Below, one piece after another: positions 9,500-31,166 of a stretch of DNA of 36,107 nt. Numbering within the stretch: the stretch's first letter is position 1; every line of letters begins with the position of its first letter. The stretch lies in NCBI GenBank assembly GCA_012518635.1, contig JAAYRT010000129.1:1-36107 (forward strand). Reading direction: 5' to 3'. The stretch is from Halanaerobiaceae bacterium. GTDB taxonomy: Bacteria > Bacillota > Halanaerobiia > Halanaerobiales > DTU029. Below the pieces are notes generated by a model. The model was not told the DNA's origin and did no database searches. It saw only the letters and a list, made by a program, of their open reading frames with translations. The translations under genes and the position numbers were made by a program.

Positions 9500-9748
9500 T
9501 TAAACCTTATCTTCATCCAGTTCAACCAAAATAACGTCTTCTCCTATTTTTCTGATTTCACTCCAATGAATTATCTGATCATTTTTTTTCAGGAAAAAAT
9601 TGAAAAGTTTGTTTTGATGGGCAGGAACTACAAAGGCTTTTACCTGGCCATTTTCCACCTCTATATCTACATCATCGATATAGCCTAATTTTTTCCCCCT
9701 TTTAATATCAATTACATCCTTTAATTTTAATTCCGAGTTTTTCAACAC
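9500..9748 (-). CDS. ylmC: YlmC/YmxH-family PRC-barrel protein
   Basis: Small (82-residue) PRC-barrel protein. The pattern [37 protein letters not shown] and [16 protein letters not shown] matches the YlmC/YmxH sporulation-associated family. The GTG at 9748 is 7 bases after GGAGG and is preferred; the adjacent TTG at 9745 is possible, and the longer reading from 9793 lacks conservation. First gene of the ylm operon, just downstream of the sigG-spoIIR terminator, as in many Clostridia. Function unknown. Confidence 0.87.
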
Positions 9749-9803
9749 AGACAGCCCTCCCTGATTTTGTTTTTGAAGCAATATTGAATTCAAAATTATT
9801 ATA

Positions 9804-9829
9804 TGAAAACTATGGTTCCTGTGTGCAAA
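9804..9829 (-). promoter_or_regulatory. Possible promoter of the ylm operon
   Basis: On the minus strand TATAAT is present in CATATAATAATT, with TTGCAC 19 bp upstream. The -10 is strong but the spacer is long, so this is a candidate only. Some promoter is expected here because the spoIIR terminator lies immediately upstream. Confidence 0.35.
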
Positions 9830-9853
9830 AGAAAAACTGCCTATAGGCAGTTT
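9827..9853 (-). terminator. Terminator after sigG-spoIIR
   Basis: A perfect 8-bp stem AAACTGCC/GGCAGTTT (9834-9841 and 9846-9853) with a TATA loop is followed on the minus strand by TTCTTTT. It is 10 bases past the spoIIR stop and isolates sporulation genes from the ylm operon. Confidence 0.9.
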
Positions 9854-9862
9854 ATATCTCTC

Positions 9863-10561
9863 TTATGTAAGTGGCTTCAGAAGTTCTATATCAATCAATT
9901 TGAATTCTTCATAAAATGGTTCTACTTCAAAAAGGGGTTTTAGCTCCATTTTACTGAATGTATCCACCAACTTAACTAATTCTTTATTTTCTGCATAATT
10001 CATTTTTTCCTCTTTATCTTTTCCCTGAAGCCATTCCACTATCTTTAATCTAAATTCCAGCTTCTTATCGCTATCAATATTCTCCGCTTCTTCTATACAG
10101 AGGGGAGGTAGGAGGACACACCACCAATTAGAGCCTTCCCCTTTACCCAGGATTACCTTTAATGCTTTATAATTTCCAGCTTCTAATCTCAGCTCATCAT
10201 AGGTTCTTGTCGGAAAGTAATACTCTCCCAATTCGACTCTGGCTTTGTATTTTACACCTTCCTCTTTTAAAATCATACCCAGGTATTCTTCCAGGATAAG
10301 ATTATCTATTTCCAGCTTGCCTGAAGCTGCCAGAGAAGCAATATATTCAGTAATCCTGTCCCTTACCAGTCTTTTTATGTACTGATCCCTGGGAGAGTTA
10401 GTGTTTGCTATGACATGTAATCGCAGGAGGTTATCTTCAGCGAAAGCATTGATAAGTCCTTCATTATCTCCAGACTGAAAAGCACTATTGACATTTATAC
10501 TCATCAGGATGATACACAGGAATATTAGAAAGAGAATAATACGCAGCCTTTTAAAAACCAT
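9863..10561 (-). CDS. spoIIR: Stage II sporulation protein R (forespore signal for SigmaE activation)
   Basis: SpoIIR is made in the forespore, secreted into the intermembrane space, and triggers SpoIIGA in the mother cell to cleave pro-SigmaE. The 232-residue protein has an N-terminal membrane/signal segment (about residues 6-25) and the family signatures LRLHVIANTNSPRDQYIKRLVRD, FPTRTYDELRLEAGNYKALKVILG and the diagnostic SNWWCVLLPPLC. The ATG at 10561 is one base from the sigG stop (TGAAATG), so the genes are translationally coupled. In Bacillus spoIIR is elsewhere on the chromosome; here it is adjacent to the genes for its targets. Confidence 0.93.
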   Translation of the reverse strand: MVFKRLRIILFLIFLCIILMSINVNSAFQSGDNEGLINAFAEDNLLRLHVIANTNSPRDQYIKRLVRDRITEYIASLAASGKLEIDNLILEEYLGMILKEEGVKYKARVELGEYYFPTRTYDELRLEAGNYKALKVILGKGEGSNWWCVLLPPLCIEEAENIDSDKKLEFRLKIVEWLQGKDKEEKMNYAENKELVKLVDTFSKMELKPLFEVEPFYEEFKLIDIELLKPLT

Positions 10562-10562
10562 T

Positions 10563-11345
10563 TCAAATATCCTCCTTTACATGTCTCCTTAATCGTTTCA
10601 ATGCTGCTTTCTCCAGACGGGAGACCTGGGCCTGGGAAATGCCTATTTCATCAGCAACTTCCATCTGGGTTTTCCCTTCATAGAAGCGGAAAGAAAGGAT
10701 GAGTTTTTCCCTGTCATTTAATTTCCGGAGGGCCTCCCTTACAGCAATACCTTCCAACCAACTCTCATCTTCAGATTTTTTATCACTAATCTGATCCATA
10801 ACAAAGATTGGATCTCCTCCGTCATGATAAATTGGTTCAAAGAGGGAGATGGGGTCCTGTATGGCATCAAGAGCAAAGATTACCTCTGACCTGGGAATTC
10901 CCAATTCTTTGGCTATATCATTGAGGGAAGGTTCCTCCGCATTTCTATTTTTTAGACTCTCCTTTACCTGTAATGCTCTATAAGCAGTATCCCGCAGGGA
11001 ACGGCTGACCCTGATAGAATTATTATCCCGCAAATATCTTCTGATTTCACCAATAATCATAGGAACAGCATAAGTGGAAAACCTGACATTTTTACTGAGA
11101 TCAAAATTATCGATGGCCTTCATCAGACCTATACAACCTACCTGAAAAAGATCATCAACATTCTCTCCTCTATTGTTAAAACGCTGGATAACACTGAGAA
11201 CAAGGCGCAAATTACCGTTGACTATAGCATTTCTGGCCTTCTTATCTCCCTGCTGCATCTTCCTGAACAGGACCCTCATTTCTTTATTTGTCAAAACAGG
11301 CAATTCAGATGTATTGACTCCGCTAATTTCCACTTTGTTCCCCAT
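10563..11345 (-). CDS. sigG: RNA polymerase sporulation sigma factor SigmaG
   Basis: Late forespore sigma factor. The 260 residues begin with NKVEISGVNTSELPVL, the N-terminal signature separating SigmaG from SigmaF. Region 2 (NLRLVLSVIQRFNNRGENVDDLFQVGCIGLMKAIDNFD, RFSTYAVPMIIGEIRRYLRD), region 3 (SRSLRDTAYRALQV) and region 4 (LNDREKLILSFRFYEGKTQMEVADEIGISQAQVSRLE) are complete. Start is ATG 11345 with AGGAGGT 6 bases before it; a reading from 11378 is less likely. A terminator separates it from sigE upstream, and a SigmaF-like promoter lies in the gap. It is followed directly by spoIIR. Confidence 0.97.
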   Translation of the reverse strand: MGNKVEISGVNTSELPVLTNKEMRVLFRKMQQGDKKARNAIVNGNLRLVLSVIQRFNNRGENVDDLFQVGCIGLMKAIDNFDLSKNVRFSTYAVPMIIGEIRRYLRDNNSIRVSRSLRDTAYRALQVKESLKNRNAEEPSLNDIAKELGIPRSEVIFALDAIQDPISLFEPIYHDGGDPIFVMDQISDKKSEDESWLEGIAVREALRKLNDREKLILSFRFYEGKTQMEVADEIGISQAQVSRLEKAALKRLRRHVKEDI

Positions 11346-11404
11346 TTGTATACCTCCTGCTCCATTTTGGCTTTTCATTCATATATTAAGAGGTTTTCTA
11401 TTTT

Positions 11405-11433
11405 CATTATTTCCCATATCCTCCGTTTTATAC
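11405..11433 (-). promoter_or_regulatory. Candidate SigmaF-type (forespore) promoter for sigG-spoIIR
   Basis: On the minus strand GTATA (11429-11433) matches the SigmaF/G -35 consensus GYATA, and GGAAATAATG (11405-11414) matches the -10 consensus GGNNANANTR. The spacer is 14 bp, one or two shorter than usual. It lies between the sigE terminator and sigG, about 60 bases before the start codon. Both sigG and spoIIR are SigmaF targets in Bacillus. Confidence 0.45.
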
Positions 11434-11465
11434 CTGGTACATATTGGGCAGGCTTTCTTGAACAT

Positions 11466-11493
11466 AAAAAAAAGAAGGGTTGTGAACCCTTCT
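11466..11493 (-). terminator. Terminator after spoIIGA-sigE
   Basis: A perfect 9-bp stem AGAAGGGTT/AACCCTTCT (11473-11481 and 11485-11493) with a three-base loop is followed on the minus strand by TTTTTTT. It overlaps the TAG stop of sigE, so the stop codon is part of the hairpin. Confidence 0.93.
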
Positions 11494-12229
11494 AAATCAA
11501 CCTGGCAACTTCTTTCCTCAATTTACTAATAATCCTTTTCTCCAGGCGGGAGATATAGGATTGGGATATTCCCAATATATCTGCCACATCCTTCTGGGTC
11601 TTTATACTACCGGACTTCAGGAGTCCAAAACGGAGAATCAGGATCTTCCTTTCCCTTCTGGATAATGATTTCATAGCTGTTTTTAATAATTCCCTGTTAA
11701 CCTCTGACTCAATATTTTTATAGATAATATCCGCATCAGTACCCATGATATCAGATAATTTTAGTTCATTGCCATCCCAATCTATGTTTAGAGGATCATC
11801 AAAGGAAAGCTCCGCCTTCTTCCTGTTATTTTTCCTTAAATACATCAGTATTTCATTTTCAATACATCGGGATGCATAGGTAGCCAGCTTGATATTTTTT
11901 TCTACATCAAAGGTGCGGACTGCCTTAATTAAACCAATTGTACCGATGGAAACCAGGTCTTCTATATCAACACCAGTATTATTGAATTTCCTGGCTATAT
12001 ATACAACCAACCGCAGATTATGTTCAATCAGTAATTTTCTGACTTCCTCCTCTCCAGCCCCTAATCTCTCCAGAAGATAGGACTCTTCCTCCTCTTCCAG
12101 AGGAGGCGGCAAAGTCTCACTACTGCCCAGGTAATAGATAGGCGAACGGTATAGACCTATTTTCTGCAGAAAACGTATCCAGTAAATTTTCAGTCGTAAT
12201 TTTAAAATTAAAAAACCCCTTCTGAACAT
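11492..12229 (-). CDS. sigE: RNA polymerase sporulation sigma factor SigmaE (pro-form)
   Basis: First mother-cell sigma factor, made as an inactive, membrane-associated precursor. The 245-residue protein has a basic/hydrophobic pro-sequence ([20 protein letters not shown], about residues 1-28), then [18 protein letters not shown], the processing neighbourhood in SigmaE. Region 2 is [36 protein letters not shown] and [19 protein letters not shown]; region 4 is [34 protein letters not shown]. It lies 13 bases after spoIIGA, its processing protease, as in the Bacillus spoIIG operon. It ends in TAG inside a terminator. Confidence 0.97.
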
Positions 12230-12242
12230 AATACTGCCCCTT

Positions 12243-13139
12243 TCATATTTGTTCTACATTAAGTAATTTGGGATGAATGAGAGCCTGATAACAATTATCC
12301 AGATCCAACATCCTTGTACTGATTCCAATAACACACTTCTCTACCCTGATAAGCTCACCCTTATAGAAGAGTTCAACAAGATCTGGCCTGAATCCCAAAA
12401 GCAGTCCCTTTTCTTCTCCCAGATCAGAAAAGGGAAGCAGGCGTATCCTGTGAGCAAGGTTATTTTTTTGAAAAACCTCTACCAGATCCATTTCACAAAC
12501 TTCTCCTGTCATCATCTCAGCCTGCATTTCCTCAGGAAATATTGGAATTAGTGTAGCCAGATTCACGATAATTACAGGAAGATTACTGATAGGGTCACTT
12601 AAACTGTTACCTGTATCCAGGAGACCGGTCAGGCTAACCTCTTTATTTTGACAATAAATGACTGTAGGTAAATAAAACTCATCCGGCAATTTATACCTCT
12701 GTATAATTTTCCAACCGGTATTCCCCAGTAAATACAGGACCAGCAGGCCGATTATTATCTTCAGAAAGCCTGTATTAAATGGAGAGTCGCCATAAACATA
12801 GAAGATGGATAAGGTGGTTCCCATGCCGATAAAGGTAATAAGGTAAAGGTTTCCCAGTGCCTTGATAAACCTGGTTCTTTGTAAACCTGGAAAAGAGATC
12901 TTTAGAATCAGGATTGCCGTAATTATGTTTAAAGAAATATGTAAAATAAAATTTATAAAAAAATAAAACCTGTATTGTTGTAGAATAAATACTACTAAAA
13001 GGTAAAGATTAGCAATATTGGCACCCAGGAAAAGCCTGAACCAGCTATATTTTATTTCCATTATATTGGCTGTTGCCCATATTATGGCAATGGTCATGAA
13101 AAAATTATTAAGTAGTGTAATATCAGCATAGATAATCAT
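12243..13139 (-). CDS. spoIIGA: Sporulation sigma-E factor processing peptidase SpoIIGA
   Basis: Membrane-embedded aspartic protease that removes the SigmaE pro-sequence when SpoIIR signals. About five membrane helices occupy residues 8-145. The cytoplasmic protease part carries the catalytic aspartate D175 in the [13 protein letters not shown] motif, equivalent to D183 of the Bacillus enzyme, which works as a dimer with one Asp per subunit. Length 298 residues, near the Bacillus 309. Ribosome site (AAGTAGGTG) is weak and 10 bases before the ATG. It is cotranscribed with sigE from an unusual long-spacer promoter. Confidence 0.94.
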
Positions 13140-19061: not shown

Positions 19062-20159
19062 TTATTCCAGGGCATAACGAGAAATATTCAGCAAAATCCC
19101 TACTGAAGACAACATAATCACCAGGGAAGTACCTCCGTAACTGATAAAAGGCAGGGTAATTCCGGTAACAGGCATGGAGGAGGTTACTACAGCTATATTA
19201 ATCAAGGCCTGTAGTATGACCATGGAGGTAATCCCTGTTGCCAATAAAGAAGCAAATAAATCCGGTACACCAATTGCTATCTTCAACCCCCTCCAGGCAA
19301 AGAGAAAAAAGAGGAATAATACCAGGAGGGTTCCGATCAAGCCAAGTTCTTCTCCGATTATGGCAAAAATAAAATCTGTACCTGGTTCCGGCAGATATAA
19401 AAACTTCTGCTTGCTCTGGCCTAAACCGACCCCAAAGATGCCGCCAGACCCCAGGGCCAGCAATGACTGGATTATATGATAACCGGTATTCAGGGGGTCT
19501 GACCAGGGGTCCAGGAAGGAGAATAATCTCTCCCTCCTGTAATCTTCACTATAAATAAACACCAATAAGAGGGGGATACTGATCAGGATCAATAAACCAA
19601 GATGAGCATATCTGGCTCCGGCAACGAATAGCATTATAAATACAGTGCCGGCTATAGTTATGGCTGTACCCAGATCTGGTTCCAGAAGGATTAAAAGAAA
19701 AACAATCCCCAGGATGATCAGGGGAGGCATTAGTCCCTCGGTAAAGGATTTGACCTTCTCTCCCTTTCTGGCAAAAAACTGGGACAGGTAGATTACCATA
19801 CCTAATTTAGCCAACTCTGAAGGCTGGATCCTGATCGGTCCAAAAATAATCCATCTCCTGGAACCGCCTACCACTTTTCCGATCCCTGGAATCAAAACCA
19901 TTATTAAAGCTATTATAGTCAGAACAAGTATCAATTTAGCATATTTCTGGTAAATATGGTAATCCAGGTTCATGAAAAATATCATGGCCAGGACACCGAT
20001 TACAGACCAGGCTAATTGGTGTCTGAAAAGGTAAAAACTGTCATTAAAATCCTCAAGAGCCCGTATTGAACTGGCACTTAAGATCATTATGAGTCCAAGC
20101 AGCATCAAAGCTATGACTACAGAAAGCAGGATATAATCGATGGTCTTCCTGTTTTCCAA
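19062..20159 (-). CDS. ftsW: SEDS peptidoglycan glycosyltransferase FtsW/SpoVE
   Basis: Ten-helix SEDS polymerase, 365 residues. Family landmarks are GGSRRWIIFGPIRIQPSELAKL, LLEPDLGTA (carrying the catalytic aspartate region), GGIFGVGLGQSKQKFLYLPEPGTDFIFAIIGEELG, and PVTGITLPFISYGGTSLV. Cluster position between murD and murG is that of Bacillus spoVE, the sporulation SEDS protein, but as only one such gene lies here it may serve vegetative division as well. TTG start at 20159 behind AAGGGGGATT. Confidence 0.95.
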   Translation of the reverse strand: MENRKTIDYILLSVVIALMLLGLIMILSASSIRALEDFNDSFYLFRHQLAWSVIGVLAMIFFMNLDYHIYQKYAKLILVLTIIALIMVLIPGIGKVVGGSRRWIIFGPIRIQPSELAKLGMVIYLSQFFARKGEKVKSFTEGLMPPLIILGIVFLLILLEPDLGTAITIAGTVFIMLFVAGARYAHLGLLILISIPLLLVFIYSEDYRRERLFSFLDPWSDPLNTGYHIIQSLLALGSGGIFGVGLGQSKQKFLYLPEPGTDFIFAIIGEELGLIGTLLVLFLFFLFAWRGLKIAIGVPDLFASLLATGITSMVILQALINIAVVTSSMPVTGITLPFISYGGTSLVIMLSSVGILLNISRYALE

Positions 20160-20181
20160 GGTTCAATCCCCCTTAAATCCT

Positions 20182-21570
20182 CTATCTATCATCCTGGCAG
20201 GATTGCAGTAGTTCCCTGACCTGTTCCTGAAATTCCCTGCCCCTTTCCTGATAACTGGCATACATATCCCAGCTGGGGCAGGCAGGTGAAAGAAGCAGGC
20301 AGTCCCCTCCCTGTAATTCTCTGGCTGCAATCTCTACTGCCTCCTTCATATTATCTGCTATATGTATATTTATATTGGGAAAACCACTCTTTAATGCCAC
20401 TTCCTGCAGTTTATATCTGGTCTCTCCCATCAGGACAAGAACCCTGACCCCTTCCTTGACAATCCTGCCCCATTCCGCAAAATCTGCATTACGGTCCTGT
20501 CCGCCAGCCAACAGGACAATTGGCCTGTCAAAGGACTGAATCCCCTTTATTGCAGAGTCAGGGTTGGTGGCCTTTGAATCATCGATTACAAGAATATCAT
20601 CTTTCAGTCGGCAAACCTCTTCCAGCCTGTGTTCAGCACTTTTAAAGTTTTTAACTGTATCCCTGATTATTCCTGCCGGTACACCCAACAAATAGGCAGT
20701 GAGGGCAGCAAAGGCCGTATTCTGTACATTATGCAACCCCATAAGAGGAATATCAGCAGAAACCATGAGCTCTACTTCCCTATCCCCTTCGCTTACTATA
20801 AGTTTACCGTTGACAAAACTTATACCCCTATCGACCCTTTTCTCCAGGCTAACCTGATACACTGAACCTGGAAAATCTGCCACTGCCTTCATCACTTCCT
20901 GATCATCTAGATTGACGATGGCCAGGTCTGCAGCAGTCTGATTTTCAAAAATCCTTTTTTTGGCCAGCCAGTAATTTTCCAGTGTTTTATGCCTATCCAG
21001 GTGATCTGGACTAAAGTTTAAGAAAAGGCTGATATCAGGCCTGAAATCTACTATTGTCTCCAATTGAAAGGAACTTATTTCCACCACCAGCCAGTCCCCT
21101 TTGCCCAGATCTCCTATCTCGCTTATCAGGGGAATACCGATATTACCGGCTGTCTTTACCTTGCCCATTCCTGCCTTTTTAAGGATCTCTCCAATCAATT
21201 GGGTTGTCGTTGTTTTCCCATTAGTACCGGTAATGGCAATTATCTTTGCTTCCGTAAAATGATAGGCCAATTCTATCTCACTGATAATTGGTATCCCCTT
21301 CTCCCGGGCCTTTTTAAAAAAGGGTATATCCAGCGGGACCCCGGGACTGACAACAATCATATCACAGGAAAGGGACTTTTCTCCATGCCCCCCCAGCTCA
21401 TATTCTATCTCCATATTTTTCAGCTTTTCCAGTTCATTTTTCAGGCCGGCAGCAGTCTTGCTATCTGATACAACCAGGTTTGCCCCCTTCTGATAAAGAA
21501 ATTCTGCAGTTGCAACCCCTGTCCGGCTTAAACCGATGATAGCAATCCTCTTGCCCTTTATCTCTAACAT
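20182..21570 (-). CDS. murD: UDP-N-acetylmuramoylalanine--D-glutamate ligase
   Basis: Adds D-Glu to UDP-MurNAc-L-Ala. 462 residues: N-terminal IAIIGLSRTGVATAEFLYQKGA, ATP loop ITGTNGKTTTTQLIG, central EISSFQLETIVDFRPDISLFLNFSPDHLDRH, C-terminal DDSKATNPDSAIKGI and LLLSPACPSWDMYASYQERGREF, the MurD signature. ATG at 21570, with GGGGAT 8 bases upstream. Ends in TAG. Confidence 0.97.
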   Translation of the reverse strand: MLEIKGKRIAIIGLSRTGVATAEFLYQKGANLVVSDSKTAAGLKNELEKLKNMEIEYELGGHGEKSLSCDMIVVSPGVPLDIPFFKKAREKGIPIISEIELAYHFTEAKIIAITGTNGKTTTTQLIGEILKKAGMGKVKTAGNIGIPLISEIGDLGKGDWLVVEISSFQLETIVDFRPDISLFLNFSPDHLDRHKTLENYWLAKKRIFENQTAADLAIVNLDDQEVMKAVADFPGSVYQVSLEKRVDRGISFVNGKLIVSEGDREVELMVSADIPLMGLHNVQNTAFAALTAYLLGVPAGIIRDTVKNFKSAEHRLEEVCRLKDDILVIDDSKATNPDSAIKGIQSFDRPIVLLAGGQDRNADFAEWGRIVKEGVRVLVLMGETRYKLQEVALKSGFPNINIHIADNMKEAVEIAARELQGGDCLLLSPACPSWDMYASYQERGREFQEQVRELLQSCQDDR

Positions 21571-21609
21571 AAAAAATCCCCTTTACTACTAGCAGATATA
21601 ATCTAATCT

Positions 21610-22572
21610 CTAACTGATAATAAAAAACGAAAGTAAACCCAGAATGGCCAGAATAATACTGCTGATCCAGAAACGGGAAACTATTTTGGCTTCCTCCAGA
21701 CCGGCCAGTTCGTAATGATGGTGAAGTGGAGTCATCCTGAAAATCCTCTTACCACCGCTAATTTTGAAATAACTTACCTGTATCATTACCGATAAGGCTT
21801 CCGCAACATAGATTCCCCCTATGATTACCAGGAAAAATTCTGTGCCGGAAAGGACTGCAAGGGCCGATACAGCACCACCCAGGGCCAATGAACCCACATC
21901 CCCCATGAAGACCTGGGCTGGATGGCTGTTAAACCAGATAAAACCCAGACAGGCCCCGCTGACAATCAGGGCATAAAGAGCCAGTTCTTTATAGCCCAGG
22001 GCAGAGCAGAGCACAGCCAGGGCAGTACAAACAATAAAGGTAACCCCTGCAGCCAGGCCATCCAGGCCGTCTGTCAGATTTACTGCATTGGTAAAACCAA
22101 CCACTATAAAGACAATAAAGGGAATAAGCCAATAACCTGGATTGATTACCCAGCCTGTAAAGGGTATTAAAATGCTTTTCCCCATACCGGAATAAAAGAC
22201 CACATATATGCCAAGCAGGAGGCCGACAAGAATCTGGCCAACCAGTTTTTCTCTGGCCCTCAAACCCAGTGAACGTTTACTGCGGATCTTTATAATATCA
22301 TCCAGAAAACCAATCAGGCCCATCCCCAGTGTTGTTATCAGAGCCCAGATGACCTCTGTACCCAGATCCAGGAATATAAATGAAGAGATTAAAAGGGCAA
22401 AAACAATCAAGATACCACCCATGGTAGGGATACCTTTTTTCTTCTGATGGGAACTGGGGCCCTCTCCCCTGATCTGTTGTCCAAAATTAAGATACTCCAG
22501 GCCCCTTATTAGACCTGGCCCAAGTATTATCAAAATAAGAAATGGTAAAAAAACTGCAGTTAAATATAACAT
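21610..22572 (-). CDS. mraY: Phospho-N-acetylmuramoyl-pentapeptide-transferase MraY
   Basis: Integral membrane enzyme that transfers phospho-MurNAc-pentapeptide to undecaprenyl phosphate, forming lipid I. 320 residues with about ten helices; hallmark blocks HQKKKGIPTMGGILIV, GFLDDIIKI (catalytic DD), TNAVNLTDGLDGLAAG, FMGDVGSLALGG and the histidine motif MTPLHHHYELAG are intact. Start is the ATG at 22572, 8 bases after GGAGG; an upstream in-frame TTG at 22587 contains the ribosome site. Ends in TAG. Confidence 0.97.
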   Translation of the reverse strand: MLYLTAVFLPFLILIILGPGLIRGLEYLNFGQQIRGEGPSSHQKKKGIPTMGGILIVFALLISSFIFLDLGTEVIWALITTLGMGLIGFLDDIIKIRSKRSLGLRAREKLVGQILVGLLLGIYVVFYSGMGKSILIPFTGWVINPGYWLIPFIVFIVVGFTNAVNLTDGLDGLAAGVTFIVCTALAVLCSALGYKELALYALIVSGACLGFIWFNSHPAQVFMGDVGSLALGGAVSALAVLSGTEFFLVIIGGIYVAEALSVMIQVSYFKISGGKRIFRMTPLHHHYELAGLEEAKIVSRFWISSIILAILGLLSFFIIS

Positions 22573-22613
22573 TCCTGTTTCCTCCAATAATTATTACAAT
22601 TTATATTAGAGCA

Positions 22614-23993
22614 TTATACCAGAGCTCTGACAATTTCCTCCATCTTCAGGCCGCGGGAACCTTTTACCAACAGTATATCTCCTGCCTGCAAATGATTCCT
22701 TAAGGCCTCAACTGCCTCCTGGTTATTCAGACATTCTACTATCTGGCTGGCTGCCATCCCTTTTTTTATGGCGCCTTCAGCAATCAGACCGGCTGTCTCT
22801 CCTACAGTAATCAGCAGGTCAGCTTTTTTCTCATATACATACTCCCCCAGGCTCAAATGAGCCGGTTTCTCCCTCTCCCCCAACTCCAACATAGCCCCCA
22901 GGGCCAGGATCAATCTTCTGCCCTTAATCTCTCCTGCAGCAGCTATGCTGGCTTCCATGGATAAGGGATTGGCATTATAGGTATCATTTATAATGGTCAC
23001 CCCATCCTTTTCCTGCACATCCCAGCGCAAGGATGAGTAGTCCACCTCCAGCAGGCCTTCTTTTATCTCCTGCCAGCTGATTCCCAGCTGGCGGGCCACA
23101 GCTATCGCAGCCAGGGCATTATATACATTATACAGCCCGCTCCTGTCCATTTTTATTTTCTCCACTTCATTCCCGTAATGGACATTAAATTCCATACCGG
23201 TCCGGGTAGTGGTTATATTATCTGCATAAAGATCTGCCTCTTCTGTTAAACCATAATAGATAATCTTTTTTCCTGTAAAAACCTGGCCCATTTCCCGGAC
23301 ATAATCATTATCATAATTCAGGATAGCAATACCGGTTGCAGGAAGGGAGCTGATCAGCTCACTTTTTCCCTTTGCTACATTTTCGACTGAAAGGAGGGTC
23401 TCCAGATGGGTCTCTCCTACATTGGTAATAACAGCTATTTCCGGTCTGGCTATATCTGCCAGCAAAGAGATTTCACCTAGCTGGCTCATACCCATTTCCA
23501 GTACAGCAACTTCTTCTTCACCATCAAAATCCAGCAGGGTAAGGGGCAGGCCATAATGATTGTTCAAATTACCCCTGGTCTTTCTGGTCCTGTATTTTCT
23601 TCCAACCAGAGAAGCAATTATGTCCTTGGTGGTAGTCTTACCGGCACTGCCGGTAATGGCAATGACCTTCAGGCCTTTTAAAAGAAAGCGGTAGGCCCTG
23701 GCCAATTCCTGCAAAGCCCTGGTGCAATCCTCTACTTTAATTAGGGGTATATCCCTTCCCCTATCTCCTGTATCCACTATTCTTTCCACCACAAGGGCAC
23801 TGGCCCCTTTTTCAATACATTCAGCAAGGAAATCATGGCCGTCAAATTTCTCCCCCTTGATAGCAAAGAACACATCCCCCTCTTTAATGCTCCTGCTGTC
23901 TATGGAAACACCGGTTATCTCCTGCGCTGGAGAGCCCTGGATGACCTTGCCGGATATACTTTTTGCTATGAACTCAGCAGTTAACTTCTTCAC
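22614..23993 (-). CDS. murF: UDP-MurNAc-tripeptide--D-alanyl-D-alanine ligase MurF
   Basis: Adds D-Ala-D-Ala to the UDP-MurNAc-tripeptide; the dipeptide comes from Ddl, encoded in this window. 459 residues: N-terminal SIDSRSIKEGDVFFAIKGEKFDGHDF, ATP loop ITGSAGKTTTKDIIA, LEMGMSQLGEI, and NDTYNANPLSMEASI. Start is GTG at 23993, overlapping the murE stop (GTGA), which implies translational coupling. Some MurF alignments have GSNGKTTTK; here Ala replaces Asn in the loop. Confidence 0.96.
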   Translation of the reverse strand: MKKLTAEFIAKSISGKVIQGSPAQEITGVSIDSRSIKEGDVFFAIKGEKFDGHDFLAECIEKGASALVVERIVDTGDRGRDIPLIKVEDCTRALQELARAYRFLLKGLKVIAITGSAGKTTTKDIIASLVGRKYRTRKTRGNLNNHYGLPLTLLDFDGEEEVAVLEMGMSQLGEISLLADIARPEIAVITNVGETHLETLLSVENVAKGKSELISSLPATGIAILNYDNDYVREMGQVFTGKKIIYYGLTEEADLYADNITTTRTGMEFNVHYGNEVEKIKMDRSGLYNVYNALAAIAVARQLGISWQEIKEGLLEVDYSSLRWDVQEKDGVTIINDTYNANPLSMEASIAAAGEIKGRRLILALGAMLELGEREKPAHLSLGEYVYEKKADLLITVGETAGLIAEGAIKKGMAASQIVECLNNQEAVEALRNHLQAGDILLVKGSRGLKMEEIVRALV

Positions 23994-25462
23994 TTCAAAC
24001 CACCCTTAATCCTATCCTCCAGAGCCTCCCTGGCTACCTGCCGGTCATCAAAGGGGATGATCTTATCCCTGAATATCTGGTAGGTTTCATGACCTTTACC
24101 AAAAAGCAGTACCATATCACCAGGGGCGGCCTTTTCTATAGCATAGAATATTGCTTCCCGCCGGTCCGGGAATATTTCATAGGGAGTTTCACTATTCTCC
24201 ATTCCCTTCTCAATATCTTTAATAATGGCCAATGGATCTTCTGAACGGGGGTTATCAGAGGTCAGGATTACCAGATCACCATATTCTGCAGCTATCCTTC
24301 CCATCTCCGGTCGCTTTCCCTTATCCCGGTCTCCGCCACAGCCAAAAACAATAATTGTCTTACCTTCAGTCAGTTCATGGGCTGTCTTCAAAACATTTTC
24401 CATTCCATCCGGTGTGTGGGCATAATCCACAACCACAGTGAAATCCTGGCCTTCATCCACCAATTCAAAGCGGCCGGCAACACCGTTGACATTCTCCAGC
24501 CCGTCCTTAATCTCATCCCCACTTAAACCCATGGCATAACCACAGGCAATGGCCGCCAGGGTATTATAAACATTAAAAAGACCGGCCAACTTCATCTGGA
24601 TGGAAAAATTGTATCTTCCCTGGACATCAAAGGAAACTCCAGTTGAATCCAACTTAATATTCCTGGCCTGAAAATCCGCATTTTTATTTATGCCATAGCT
24701 TAAGATTTCTCCCCTGGCAGCATCTATAATCTGTTCACTTTTGGGATCATCGATATTTACAATAGAAAAACCCCCGGCTTCCACCTGTTGAAATAGTCTG
24801 CTCTTGGCAAGCAAATATTCATCTATTGAATGGTGATAATCAAGATGGTCCTGTGAAATATTGGTGAAAATAGCTGCCCTATAATCCATACCCTGGACCC
24901 TCTTTAAATCCAGGGCATGTGAAGAAACCTCCATAACCACATGGGACAGATTTGCTTCCACCATTTCAGCAAAAAGGGCATATAAATCAAGTGATTCCGG
25001 GGTCGTCCTCGTTGCCGGTAAGGTTTTTTCACCGACAATATTTTTTATGGACCCAATCAGGCCGGTAGCCTTTCCCGCCTTATCCAACATGCCCTTGATT
25101 AGATAAGTAGTAGTTGTCTTACCATTGGTACCTGTAACTCCGATAAGCTCCAGTTTTTCCAGAGGATTATTAAAAAAAGTAGCTGCCAGATAAGCCATAG
25201 ATTCCCTACTATCAGCTACTTCTACAATACTTATTCCTTCCGGATATTCTTCCAGCTCTTTTTCAACTATAATTGCCACAGCACCATTTTGAATCGCATT
25301 TTTAATATACTTATGGCCATCTGTTTTAAAGCCTTCAATACAGATAAAAAGACTACCTTCCTCCACCTGGCGGGAATCATAGGCAATTTTTTTAACCTCT
25401 ACAGAAAGATCACCTATGGTTTTAAGAGGGCTTACATTCTGGATTAAATCTTTTAATTGCAT
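23990..25462 (-). CDS. murE: UDP-MurNAc-dipeptide--meso-diaminopimelate ligase MurE
   Basis: Adds the third stem residue. 490 residues: DSRQVEEGSLFICIEGFKTDGH, ATP loop VTGTNGKTTTTYLIKG, RTTPESLDLYALFAEM, EVSSHALDLKRV. The C-terminal DNPRSEDP motif has the DNPR tetrad that selects meso-diaminopimelate over lysine, so the organism should have DAP-type peptidoglycan. ATG at 25462 lies 8 bases after GGAGGT; the TTG one codon upstream is less well placed. Confidence 0.97.
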   Translation of the reverse strand: MQLKDLIQNVSPLKTIGDLSVEVKKIAYDSRQVEEGSLFICIEGFKTDGHKYIKNAIQNGAVAIIVEKELEEYPEGISIVEVADSRESMAYLAATFFNNPLEKLELIGVTGTNGKTTTTYLIKGMLDKAGKATGLIGSIKNIVGEKTLPATRTTPESLDLYALFAEMVEANLSHVVMEVSSHALDLKRVQGMDYRAAIFTNISQDHLDYHHSIDEYLLAKSRLFQQVEAGGFSIVNIDDPKSEQIIDAARGEILSYGINKNADFQARNIKLDSTGVSFDVQGRYNFSIQMKLAGLFNVYNTLAAIACGYAMGLSGDEIKDGLENVNGVAGRFELVDEGQDFTVVVDYAHTPDGMENVLKTAHELTEGKTIIVFGCGGDRDKGKRPEMGRIAAEYGDLVILTSDNPRSEDPLAIIKDIEKGMENSETPYEIFPDRREAIFYAIEKAAPGDMVLLFGKGHETYQIFRDKIIPFDDRQVAREALEDRIKGGLK

Positions 25463-25511
25463 CAAGGTTTACCTCCAACTAATTATTAAGCAAAATGAAT
25501 TAATTTATACA

Positions 25512-27584
25512 TCATTCTTTTGCTTCCACACTTATTTCAGTTCCGCCAGATACTCGCTCTCCTGCCTGAATATCCTGTTTGATGATTCTGCCTTTCCCTC
25601 TTACCTGTAAACGCAGGCCGATTTGTTCAAGCAAATAACTGGCTTCATCCACTGTCATGCCAGTCAGGTCCGGAACAGCAATCAGATAATTCCTGTCATA
25701 GTCTTCTTCAGAAAATAAAAGTATGGTTGTTCCCTCCACCACCCTGGCCCCGGCCAGGGGGACCTGTTTCTGTATTATATTATTCTTCCCTACAATTTTA
25801 ACATCAAAACCTTCTTTCCTCAATAAGTTTTCTGCTTCAATAATCTCCATTCCAGATAATTCGGGAACAATCAGTAATCTATCAGCCTTATCTCCATCAT
25901 CATGACGGACAGAAGGTGCTATATCCAGATAACGGATGATATCCAGAGCTATATTACGAAAAAGCGGTGCAGCTGTCTGGCTGCCATAATAGGGGTAGCC
26001 GGTCAGGTCATAAAGAACCACCAGGATTACCAGTTTAGGATTATCAATAGGTAATATACCGATAAAAGAAGAGTCATAAACCTCAACACCGTAATGCTTG
26101 GCAGTCCCTGTTTTTCCACCTATACGGTAACCATTAATGGCAGCACTACTTCCCGTACCATCAGAAACAACTTTCTCCAGTAGTTTTAAGGTCCGTTCTG
26201 CAGTCTCTTCAGATACTACCTGCCTTACCCGGACTGGTTCTATTCTTTCCACCAGTTTCCCTTCCGGAGTCCTGATCTCTTCAACCAGGCGGGGCTGCAT
26301 CATTATCCCTTTATTGGCAATAGCCGATACAGCTGTTATCAGTTGTATCGGTGTTACAGTGAGTCCATGACCAAAAGACATGGTGGCCAGTTCTACCGGG
26401 CCAATGGAATCATAATTAGACAATATACCGGCAGCTTCACCGGGAAGTCTTATGGATGTCTTTCTTCCAAAGCCAAAAGCCTGAATATAATTATAAAAGG
26501 ATTCCTTGCCCAGCCTCATTCCTACCTGGACAAAACCAGGGTTACAGGAATTCTGTACAACCTCAGCAAAGGTCTGGCTCCCATGACCTCCATATCTCCA
26601 ACAATTAATCCTTTCACCACTGACCAGTATATGGCCGGGGTCCACAAAGATATCATATTCGTTAACTACCCCGTCCTCCAGAGCAGCAGCTGTAGTGATT
26701 ATCTTAAAGGTAGAGCCTGGCTCAAAACTATCGGAGATAGCCCTGTTCCTCCAATTTTTCTGGGGATAATCAGCAAAATTATTCAGATCATAATCCGGCC
26801 TATTGGCCAGGGCCAGGATTCCTCCGGTTTCAGGATCCATTACAATTACAGTACCGCCAGAAGTTTCAAACTCATTTATGGCCTTATCCAGTTCCCGTTC
26901 TACTATATATTGAATAACTTCATCTATGGTCAAATAGATATTATAACCGTCCTGAGGTGTTACATATTGCTGGATACCATCAGGGATATATCTGCCGGCT
27001 GCATCCCGCTCAATTCCTATCTTACCAGGTTTCCCCCGTAAATATCTGTCATAGGATAATTCCAGGCCTTCCAGACCCTGGCTGTCTATACCGGCAAAAC
27101 CCAGGATATGGCTGGCCAGGTTTCCCTTGGGGTAATATCTCTTGCTCTCTTCAGTAAATTCAATCCCAGATAAATTTTGTTTCCGTACCGCTTCGGCTAC
27201 CTCTTCAGACACCTTCCTTTTTACATAAACAGCACTGGCCCTCCGGGTTATCCGGTCATATACATAATCATATTCCAGATCAAGAATATTTGACAATACC
27301 CGGGCAGTTCTGGCCGGTTCCTTCACCTCCATCGGTATTGCTACAATAGTCTCACTGCTGCCGCTTATGGCCAATTCCCTGCCCTTACTGTCATAGATTA
27401 TACCCCGTTTAGGCTCAACCATTAACTCCCTGGTCCTCTGCTCCAATGCTTTTTTCTGGTATTCAGCACTATTAATAACCTGTATCCAGGTTAATCTCGT
27501 TGAAAGAAGTATGATAAGTAGAAAAAAAAGAAAAAACAATATTATAATTCTTTTTCTAACCTGTAAATGAGGATAAACAGACAA
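25512..27584 (-). CDS. ftsI: Class B penicillin-binding protein with two PASTA domains (FtsI/PBP2B-SpoVD type)
   Basis: Septal transpeptidase that cross-links peptidoglycan. 690 residues: one N-terminal membrane helix (about 12-32), the dimerisation/pedestal domain (VEPKRGIIYDSKGRELA onward), and the transpeptidase with nucleophile S291 in EPGSTFKI, SCN at 346-348 and KTGT at 491-494. Two PASTA modules follow (about 571-626 and 634-690). Two PASTA domains are typical of vegetative PBP2B; sporulation SpoVD usually has one. Only one class B PBP is present in this cluster. TTG start at 27584 with GGGGGAT 7 bases upstream. Confidence 0.96.
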   Translation of the reverse strand: MSVYPHLQVRKRIIILFFLFFLLIILLSTRLTWIQVINSAEYQKKALEQRTRELMVEPKRGIIYDSKGRELAISGSSETIVAIPMEVKEPARTARVLSNILDLEYDYVYDRITRRASAVYVKRKVSEEVAEAVRKQNLSGIEFTEESKRYYPKGNLASHILGFAGIDSQGLEGLELSYDRYLRGKPGKIGIERDAAGRYIPDGIQQYVTPQDGYNIYLTIDEVIQYIVERELDKAINEFETSGGTVIVMDPETGGILALANRPDYDLNNFADYPQKNWRNRAISDSFEPGSTFKIITTAAALEDGVVNEYDIFVDPGHILVSGERINCWRYGGHGSQTFAEVVQNSCNPGFVQVGMRLGKESFYNYIQAFGFGRKTSIRLPGEAAGILSNYDSIGPVELATMSFGHGLTVTPIQLITAVSAIANKGIMMQPRLVEEIRTPEGKLVERIEPVRVRQVVSEETAERTLKLLEKVVSDGTGSSAAINGYRIGGKTGTAKHYGVEVYDSSFIGILPIDNPKLVILVVLYDLTGYPYYGSQTAAPLFRNIALDIIRYLDIAPSVRHDDGDKADRLLIVPELSGMEIIEAENLLRKEGFDVKIVGKNNIIQKQVPLAGARVVEGTTILLFSEEDYDRNYLIAVPDLTGMTVDEASYLLEQIGLRLQVRGKGRIIKQDIQAGERVSGGTEISVEAKE

Positions 27585-29090: not shown

Positions 29091-29522
29091 TTAAATTCCC
29101 AACTCTTCCATGGCTGCAGCAATGTCCTCATAGGAATTCTCCGCTTCTTTCATGTAAACATCCCATCTTTCCTTAGCCCAGAGCTCTATTCTATTGGCCA
29201 GGCCGATAATTACCAATTCCTTATCTATCCCTGCATATTCACGCAGATTTGCAGGAATGGAAATCCTCCCCTGCTTGTCCAGTTCGCATTCTGTGGCACC
29301 GGAAAAGAAAAACCTGACAAAAGCCCGGGCATTCTTACTGGTAATCGGAAGAGTCATTAATTTTTTCTCTAAATCAGACCATTCATGCATAGGATACACA
29401 AAAAGGCAGTTGTCTAAACCTCTTGTGGTAATAAACTTCTCTCCTAATGCATCGCGAAACCTGGCCGGTATTATCACCCGGCCTTTGGGGTCCATATTAT
29501 GTTGATATTCTCCCATAAACAT
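29091..29522 (-). CDS. mraZ: Transcriptional regulator MraZ
   Basis: Ring-forming DNA-binding protein with two AbrB/SpoVT-like swapped-hairpin domains ([13 protein letters not shown] at about residues 12-24 and [13 protein letters not shown] at about 81-93), 143 residues. MraZ represses its own dcw operon by binding tandem GTGG-containing repeats; four such repeats lie just upstream. The MFMGEYQH N-terminus matches the family, supporting the ATG at 29522. First gene of the dcw operon. Confidence 0.98.
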
Positions 29523-29549
29523 GAGGTACCACCTTCCTGGTGCCTTCCC

Positions 29550-29585
29550 CCACTTTTACACCACTTACCCCCACTTTTCCCCACT
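29550..29585 (-). promoter_or_regulatory. MraZ operator: four AGTGG direct repeats
   Basis: On the minus strand AGTGG occurs at 29581-29585, 29571-29575, 29561-29565 and 29550-29554, i.e. steps of 10, 10 and 11 bp. One-turn spacing of GTGG cores is the known MraZ box arrangement. The array starts at the predicted transcription start of the SigmaH-like promoter, so bound MraZ would block initiation or promoter escape. Confidence 0.88.
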
Positions 29586-29594
29586 CTAATTCTA

Positions 29595-29722: not shown

Positions 29723-29751
29723 CACTTTTTTATAGATTGATTCATATAATA
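29723..29751 (+). promoter_or_regulatory. Possible sporulation (SigmaK/SigmaE-like) promoter of the small gene
   Basis: CATATAATA (29743-29751) fits the SigmaK -10 CATANNNTA, and CACT (29723-29726) is 16 bases upstream, close to the SigmaK -35 (mACm). The same -10 contains TATAAT, so a SigmaA promoter without a good -35 is an alternative. Low information content. Confidence 0.3.
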
Positions 29752-29772
29752 AAGGTGAAAAGGAGGATAAGG

Positions 29773-29901
29773 ATGAAAATAAATTTTTTCTTTGCCTGGA
29801 CTAAAAATAAAGATAAAAGCAATGAATACACTAAATCCATCGGCGGTGGTTTTAAATTACCTTCTTTCCTCAGATGGCTTAATATTTTCAGAAGAAATTA
29901 A
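29773..29901 (+). CDS. Small cationic amphipathic protein, C-terminus SpoVM-like
   Basis: A 42-codon gene with a near-perfect ribosome site (AGGAGG, 29761-29766, then six bases to ATG). The product starts MKINFFFAWTKNKDKSNEYT and ends with GGGFKLPSFLRWLNIFRRN. It is rich in Phe/Trp and Lys/Arg (net about +7). The ending resembles Bacillus SpoVM (26 residues, with KLPKFL and a final FRKD), the curvature-sensing amphipathic helix that starts spore-coat assembly: KLP-x-FL is shared, as is the FR-basic-polar end, with five fewer residues between. The N-terminal ~25 residues are extra. It could instead be an unrelated membrane-active peptide. It is divergent from mraZ and convergent with dinB, and followed by a terminator. 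Confidence 0.6.
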   Translation: MKINFFFAWTKNKDKSNEYTKSIGGGFKLPSFLRWLNIFRRN

Positions 29902-29933: not shown

Positions 29934-29963
29934 TAAAAAAGCAACCTTCAAAAAGGTTGCTTT
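29934..29963. terminator. Bidirectional terminator between the small gene and dinB
   Basis: A perfect 11-bp stem AAAGCAACCTT/AAGGTTGCTTT (29938-29948 and 29953-29963) with a CAAA loop. The minus strand is followed by TTTTTT, best suited to ending dinB; the plus side has a weaker T-rich tail. Confidence 0.88.
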
Positions 29964-29999: not shown

Positions 30000-31166
30000 T
30001 TATTTAAAATCATCCAGATTTCTGGCCCGGATAAGACTGGTCTCTCCAAATTTATCCCTGATAAAATCTATGGTTTTCGTCAAGTCATCCGTCTTTTGAT
30101 TATTTTCAAAGAGTGACAATTGTTCCGGCCCCTCTGGAGAAAGATTGCTGACTCCTACTCCCAATAACCTTACAGGCTGGTTCAACAATTTATTTTTCTC
30201 CAGCAGATAAATAGCTTTTTGATAAATTACATCTGTATTATTTGTCCCCACAGCGATACTGATACTCCTGGTGTAGGTTGTAAAATCACCATATCTGATT
30301 TTAACATCTATTGTATTACCGATCAGGCCTGCTTTCCGCAAACGCCTGGATACCTTGCTGGACATCCTCAGGAGACTGGACAGAATTGCATTTTTATCAC
30401 TTATATTCTCGGCAAAGGTCTCCTCATGACTGATGGACTTAACCGGATTATCTACCTCAACCTTCCTGTTATCTATCCCCCTGGACAAATAGTAAAGACG
30501 GATACCGTTTTTCCCCAGCAGGTTTTCCAGTTCCTCAAGGGGAAGGGTCTTTAAACGGCCTATGGTATCTATTCCCCTGCTCCTCAGGATTTCCGCTGTC
30601 TTTTTCCCCACACCCCAAATCTTATTTACATCAAGGGGTTCCAGTATCCTGTCTATATCTTTATCCTCTATTACAAAAAAGCCGTCCGGCTTCTCCATAT
30701 CCGAAGCCAGTTTAGCCAGGAATTTATTCCTGGCCAGACCAATGGAGGCTGTTAAACCAAATTTATTATAAATATCCTCTTTGATCCGCCTGCCAATCTG
30801 GATAGAATCACCAAAAAGGCGGGAACAACCAGTCAGGTCCAGAAAGGCCTCATCAATGGAAATTTGCTCAACAAGGGGGGTATATTGATAAAATATTTCA
30901 AAAATCTGCCGGGAAACCTCACTATACCTTTCATGCCTGCCTGGCAAAAAGACTGCATCAGGACAGAGCCGTTTTGCCTCAACAATTGGCATGGCCGAAT
31001 GAACACCATATTTTCTGGCCTCATAGGAGGCTGTAGAAACAACCCCCCGGTTACTTAAACTTACTCCGCCAACAATGACCGGTTTCCCTTTTAACTCCGG
31101 TTTATCCATCTGCTCTACAGCAGCATAAAAAGCATCCATGTCTACATGCATGATATTCAGAGCCAT
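30000..31166 (-). CDS. dinB: DNA polymerase IV (Y-family)
   Basis: Low-fidelity translesion polymerase, 388 residues. Metal-binding acidic residues are D9 (HVDMDAFYA) and D105-E106 (SIDEAFLDLTG). Thumb HhH segment is KIWGVGKKTAEILRSRGI, then the little-finger domain. Near the C-terminus QLSLF is a clear beta-clamp binding motif, followed by a ~25-residue tail. ATG at 31166, 11 bases after the ddl stop, suggesting cotranscription with ddl. Confidence 0.97.
   Translation of the reverse strand: MALNIMHVDMDAFYAAVEQMDKPELKGKPVIVGGVSLSNRGVVSTASYEARKYGVHSAMPIVEAKRLCPDAVFLPGRHERYSEVSRQIFEIFYQYTPLVEQISIDEAFLDLTGCSRLFGDSIQIGRRIKEDIYNKFGLTASIGLARNKFLAKLASDMEKPDGFFVIEDKDIDRILEPLDVNKIWGVGKKTAEILRSRGIDTIGRLKTLPLEELENLLGKNGIRLYYLSRGIDNRKVEVDNPVKSISHEETFAENISDKNAILSSLLRMSSKVSRRLRKAGLIGNTIDVKIRYGDFTTYTRSISIAVGTNNTDVIYQKAIYLLEKNKLLNQPVRLLGVGVSNLSPEGPEQLSLFENNQKTDDLTKTIDFIRDKFGETSLIRARNLDDFK

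Follow-up and report, generated by a model that had tools for sequence, protein, structure and literature searches.

The short interval between mraZ and dinB in a Halanaerobiaceae genome raises the question of whether the small open reading frame that lies there is a gene and, if it is, whether it encodes a form of the coat-anchoring peptide SpoVM or a protein of another kind. The window, by which we mean the whole stretch of DNA that was analysed, spans 36,107 nucleotides (contig JAAYRT010000129.1, positions 1 to 36,107), and the frame occupies 42 codons on its + strand, from the start codon at 29773 to a TAA that ends at 29901, encoding MKINFFFAWTKNKDKSNEYTKSIGGGFKLPSFLRWLNIFRRN. A preliminary description had taken it for a hidden gene with a ribosome site, a possible sporulation promoter of its own and a terminator, and each of these signals is in place. 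An AGGAGG ribosome-binding site (29761-29766, + strand) precedes the ATG by 6 bases, a predicted sigma-K-type promoter stands further upstream (29723-29751, + strand; AC at 29724-29725 within CAC at 29723-29725, a 17 nt spacer, then CATATAATA at 29743-29751), and a hairpin with T-rich sequence on its 3' side follows the frame (29938-29963, + strand; fold -13.9 kcal/mol, z -4.7), probably serving as a terminator common to the convergent dinB. Both neighbours are on the - strand: mraZ (29091-29522; TIGR00242, 178.5 bits), the head of the dcw cluster, diverges from the frame, and dinB, identified by NCBIfam as the gene for DNA polymerase IV (30000-31166), converges on it.

The preliminary description had held that a lack of conservation in relatives would count against the gene. 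A translated search of 101 relatives instead gave clear homologs of the microprotein in 25 genomes, all of the same class, and a profile search of 59 Halanaerobiia genomes returned the same 25 (E 4e-27 to 7e-18). The homologs are 39-46 residues long, are under purifying selection (pN/pS, non-synonymous changes per site relative to synonymous, of 0.12-0.21) and are likewise preceded by a G-rich Shine-Dalgarno sequence; named members include Orenia metallireducens, Halonatronum saccharophilum, Natroniella, Fuchsiella, Halanaerobacter jeridensis, Candidatus Frackibacter and Halothermothrix sp. MAGs. Given these 25 homologs, the selection acting on them and the conserved start, ribosome site, promoter and locus, the frame is a genuine, previously unnamed gene. 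That a short ORF between annotated genes should be spurious, or the regulatory leader of a neighbouring gene, is refuted by such class-wide conservation of a protein and is virtually inconceivable for a frame with its own promoter and terminator, two neighbours on the opposite strand and no Rfam match.

In the peptide, an aromatic N-terminal segment, MK[IV][DN]F[FL]xxW, is followed by a variable charged linker, a conserved K-xx-GGG hinge and a putative basic-aromatic C-terminal helix capped by F-K-x-P. M1 (with a GTG or TTG start in two members), K2, F5, W9, K21 and P30 are invariant, and K11, G25 and G26 nearly so; the Orenia and Acetohalobium families carry forms of 39-41 residues with a linker three residues shorter, in which the invariant proline stands at position 27. 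Neither a phylum sample of 398 genomes nor viral contigs yielded a homolog outside the class, no Pfam or NCBIfam model matched the protein, and PDB and PHROGs gave no meaningful match. With the N-terminal motif as its seed, a scan of 84,980 species returned only this group and one contig, WJKS01000052.1 (L132:1-4220), which holds a 26th copy and is filed under a Candidatus Aenigmatarchaeota (archaeal) MAG; we regard it as mis-binned because its neighbouring genes are mraZ, rsmH, ftsL, spoVD and dinB of Halanaerobiia type. The family is undescribed in the openly accessible literature that we searched.

Conservation beside mraZ, which had been proposed as a check, is complete in the sense that in 25/25 genomes the gene is located upstream of the head of the dcw cluster and points away from it. 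The cluster starts mraZ-rsmH-ftsL-spoVD in 16 of these and rsmH-ftsL-spoVD in the other nine, all from families f8 and f11, where mraZ was not found beside rsmH; in one further genome (G048) the mraZ match spans only 45 residues, and together these cases suggest loss or decay of mraZ. On the far side the neighbour is, where readable, on the opposite strand and convergent, and its identity differs between families (dinB, ddl, a peptidase-like gene, LysO-like membrane genes or a PilQ-like gene, the last three named by eye). With opposite-strand genes on both sides, the microprotein gene is therefore most likely monocistronic. In the window itself (9500-13139 and 19062-27584), the dcw cluster includes spoVD and spoVE and is followed, by NCBIfam matches, by spoIIGA, sigE, sigG, spoIIR and a ylmC/ymxH sporulation gene, the spoIIGA and spoIIR matches falling below their curated cut-offs. 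GTGGG-type repeats (CCCAC/CCAC on the + strand) precede mraZ at 29545-29590 and resemble MraZ boxes.

The distribution of the gene follows that of SpoIVA (PF09547), which 27 of the 59 genomes of the class encode. The microprotein was found in 25 of these 27 and in none of the 32 SpoIVA-negative genomes. Of the two exceptions, G005 has a contig that starts inside mraZ and G045 one that starts 117 bp before rsmH; these are assembly gaps at the locus, so that the count becomes 25/25 testable SpoIVA-positive genomes against 0/32 (Fisher p about 1e-16, a value that ignores relatedness). The same coupling is seen within a single family (f3), in which one genus keeps both SpoIVA and the microprotein and the other genera lack both, and where the two must therefore have been gained or lost together. 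Weak matches (E 0.01-0.1) in four SpoIVA-negative genomes (G016, G034, G040 and G051) were rejected as partial and lying within longer frames or broken by stops. The sporulation link that had been suggested for the gene is thus borne out by its restriction to genomes with sporulation genes, and it is almost certainly a sporulation gene; co-occurrence with SpoIVA fits a role in the coat or any other role in sporulation alike.

The promoter adds timing to this picture. A strict motif, AC-N16/17-CATANNNTA, lies upstream of 21/25 microprotein genes and is missing from the remaining four, whereas dinucleotide shuffles of these regions gave a mean of 0.27 and a maximum of 3 (500 shuffles). It agrees with the published sigma-K consensus, which has AC at -35 and CATATAAT at -10 (PMC3789822) and is given for Bacillus as MWCM-16-CATANNNTD (PMC9562818). 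Control promoters were taken from the same genomes, with some start codons picked automatically and possibly wrong: the motif preceded dpaA, whose promoter in C. difficile and B. subtilis is a sigma-K promoter (PMC3789822), in 15/25 (the dpaA matches scoring 242-313 bits, below the NCBIfam cut-off of 319.65), and spoIIIAA and spoIVA, here assumed to depend on sigma-E by analogy with other Firmicutes, in 0/25 and 1/20. A matrix trained solely on the dpaA promoters exceeded its 99% shuffle threshold at 16/25 microprotein genes, 0/25 spoIIIAA and 1/20 spoIVA genes, and scored the window site at 21.3 (threshold 9.47); the gene is thus a predicted member of the late mother-cell regulon. Although the -10 boxes of sigma-E and sigma-K overlap, the promoter is very probably of sigma-K type. 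The spoIIIAA promoters often have GCATATTT at -35, and in many genomes of the class it is followed by a AATATGATT/AATATAAT-like box; the pair may represent a class-specific sigma-E promoter.

We then considered whether the protein is an extended SpoVM variant, as the preliminary description had proposed from a KLP-x-FL likeness. The likeness is present in the window protein (KLPSFL), but KLPxFL occurs in only 10/25 members and KLP in 18/25, the proline being the one invariant residue of the motif. SpoVM profiles (NF033436, PRK14741 and PF08183), which scored the B. subtilis SpoVM control at 61-77 bits, matched neither the window protein nor any of 21 members; profile-profile comparison with hhalign gave a probability of 3.2% (P 0.014) over nine columns, and the best gap-free alignment with B. 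subtilis SpoVM had a shuffled p of about 0.03 for the window protein and of 0.2-0.8, at chance level, for many members. The predicted promoter also points away from SpoVM, which in both B. subtilis and C. difficile is under sigma-E control, and the locus differs, as the proximity of the SpoVM gene to rpmB is conserved among the organisms that carry it (spoVM adjoins rpmB in outgroups G063, G067, G080 and G095). SpoVM membership is therefore not supported, and the explanation that this is the Halanaerobiia SpoVM, relocated, extended and recruiting SpoIVA to the forespore surface, seems distinctly unlikely to us.

What speaks for that explanation is the strict co-occurrence with SpoIVA, the invariant K2, the invariant proline that follows F-K-L in most members, much as Pro9 of SpoVM, its sole fully conserved residue, closes I6-K7-L8-P9, and the outcome of a check that had been suggested for a canonical spoVM elsewhere: no match over cutoff in the class genomes, and, at the rpmB locus of 9 genomes and the rpe locus of 14, no ORF that resembles SpoVM. 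This absence is weak evidence because SpoVM HMMs are insensitive outside Bacilli (the model exceeds its cutoff in 3 of the 101 genomes, 63 of which carry SpoIVA). Galperin et al. 2012 (PMC3533761) noted that the search for SpoVM had failed in several clostridia and that annotation routinely overlooks tiny sporulation genes. A 13-residue match of 85% in G080 proved to be an out-of-frame stretch within a long coding frame and was discarded. The Halanaerobiia rpmB gene encodes an L28 of 76 aa, against 62-63 aa in the outgroups, and mostly adjoins a gene judged by eye to be malic-enzyme-like; spoVM does not occur between rpmB and its neighbours.

The preliminary description had offered a cationic membrane-active peptide as the alternative; such a peptide might be secreted or lytic and serve in mother-cell lysis, cannibalism or antimicrobial action. 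Shortness, an aromatic and basic C-terminus and a promoter of late mother-cell type are compatible with it. However, the net charge of the members spans 0 to +10, so that no strong positive charge is conserved, and the best conserved elements are the N-terminal MK[IV][DN]F motif and the GGG hinge; moreover, no signal peptide was seen by eye, no gene for an exporter or for immunity stands out beside it, and the downstream neighbours vary between families. We consider such a peptide very improbable. The AlphaFold model has helices at residues 4-22 and 31-36, and its low confidence (pLDDT 63) makes both the helix and membrane binding weak predictions. The hydrophobic moment of the C-terminal segment is 0.36-0.74 among members, against 0.56 for SpoVM, and its amphipathic signal is not significant for many of them (p 0.01-0.27).

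Regulation of the gene is well supported by its sequence, and we infer a biochemical role from there with more caution. The role that we favour, with moderate confidence, is that of a class-specific late mother-cell sporulation protein, made from its own sigma-K promoter, that binds the outer forespore membrane and helps the coat to attach or mature. Sigma-K RNA polymerase would transcribe the gene in the mother cell late in spore formation, and expression at that stage would give the microprotein access to the mother-cell face of the outer forespore membrane, the face at which coat and cortex mature. The aromatic N-terminus and the GGG-hinged, Pro-capped C-terminus may form two ends that contact membrane or partner, with the charged linker between them. 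Attachment or maturation of the coat would then be aided in a manner somewhat like that of SpoVM, at a later time and by a non-homologous protein. This places its transcription by sigma-K, its position at membrane or coat and its anchoring role among the predictions that the sequence allows.

A late mother-cell factor could also have another target, such as the synthesis of cortex peptidoglycan, the cross-linking of the coat or, in these diderm spore formers, the remodelling of the outer forespore membrane. The sigma-K-type promoter would suit it, as would the fixed place beside a dcw cluster with spoVD and spoVE and the limitation to one class, a lineage with an LPS outer membrane according to PMC5007114. 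Yet the gene is divergent and has its own promoter and terminator, which means that its position may reflect only conserved gene order, and no domain or motif indicates such targets; we hold this explanation to be unlikely. It is more of a long shot that the microprotein, as a late mother-cell peptide, serves diderm spore formers as a dedicated factor, its two membrane-facing segments covering the mother-cell-derived outer forespore membrane and either preparing that membrane for its later role or anchoring the coat to it in place of SpoVM. If true, it would be a lineage-specific solution for coat attachment in bacteria with an LPS outer membrane. Under the coat-related role that we favour, as under these others, a tiny gene that no Pfam or NCBIfam model covers is yet tied to SpoIVA class-wide, and offers a concrete target for knockout and localisation work on late spore-envelope assembly in diderm spore formers. 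MK[IV][DN]F[FL][FY][AT]W upstream of mraZ or rsmH could also serve as a simple marker of spore-forming potential in Halanaerobiia genomes.

Among known systems, the closest comparison is with SpoVM (NF033436 / PF08183), a 26-aa coat-anchoring amphipathic helix. Like SpoVM, the microprotein is very short, starts with MK, has a basic end and an invariant proline mostly preceded by hydrophobic-K-L, is tied to SpoIVA-bearing genomes and has predicted mother-cell expression. It differs in its lack of an HMM match, in its size and proline position (39-46 residues with Pro at 30 or 27, against about 26 with Pro at 9), in its aromatic N-terminal half and GGG hinge, in a promoter predicted to be of sigma-K rather than sigma-E type, in a locus at the dcw head in 25/25 genomes rather than at rpmB, and in that KLPxFL is not conserved; a partly SpoVM-like way of working is possible. 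CmpA, also small, is a coat-morphogenesis and quality-control protein of the SpoVM-SpoIVA pathway in Bacillales and, compared by description, resembles the microprotein as a sporulation protein with a connection to coat and cortex. Unlike the Halanaerobiia microprotein, CmpA is conserved exclusively in Bacillales (PMC5607322). The likeness to dpaA, which encodes dipicolinate synthase subunit A of the sigma-K regulon and, in these genomes, has a promoter of the AC-N16/17-CATANNNTA type as well, concerns regulation only, its product being an unrelated enzyme. Set beside these systems, the microprotein is a new family of a known kind, that of small, clade-specific mother-cell sporulation proteins.
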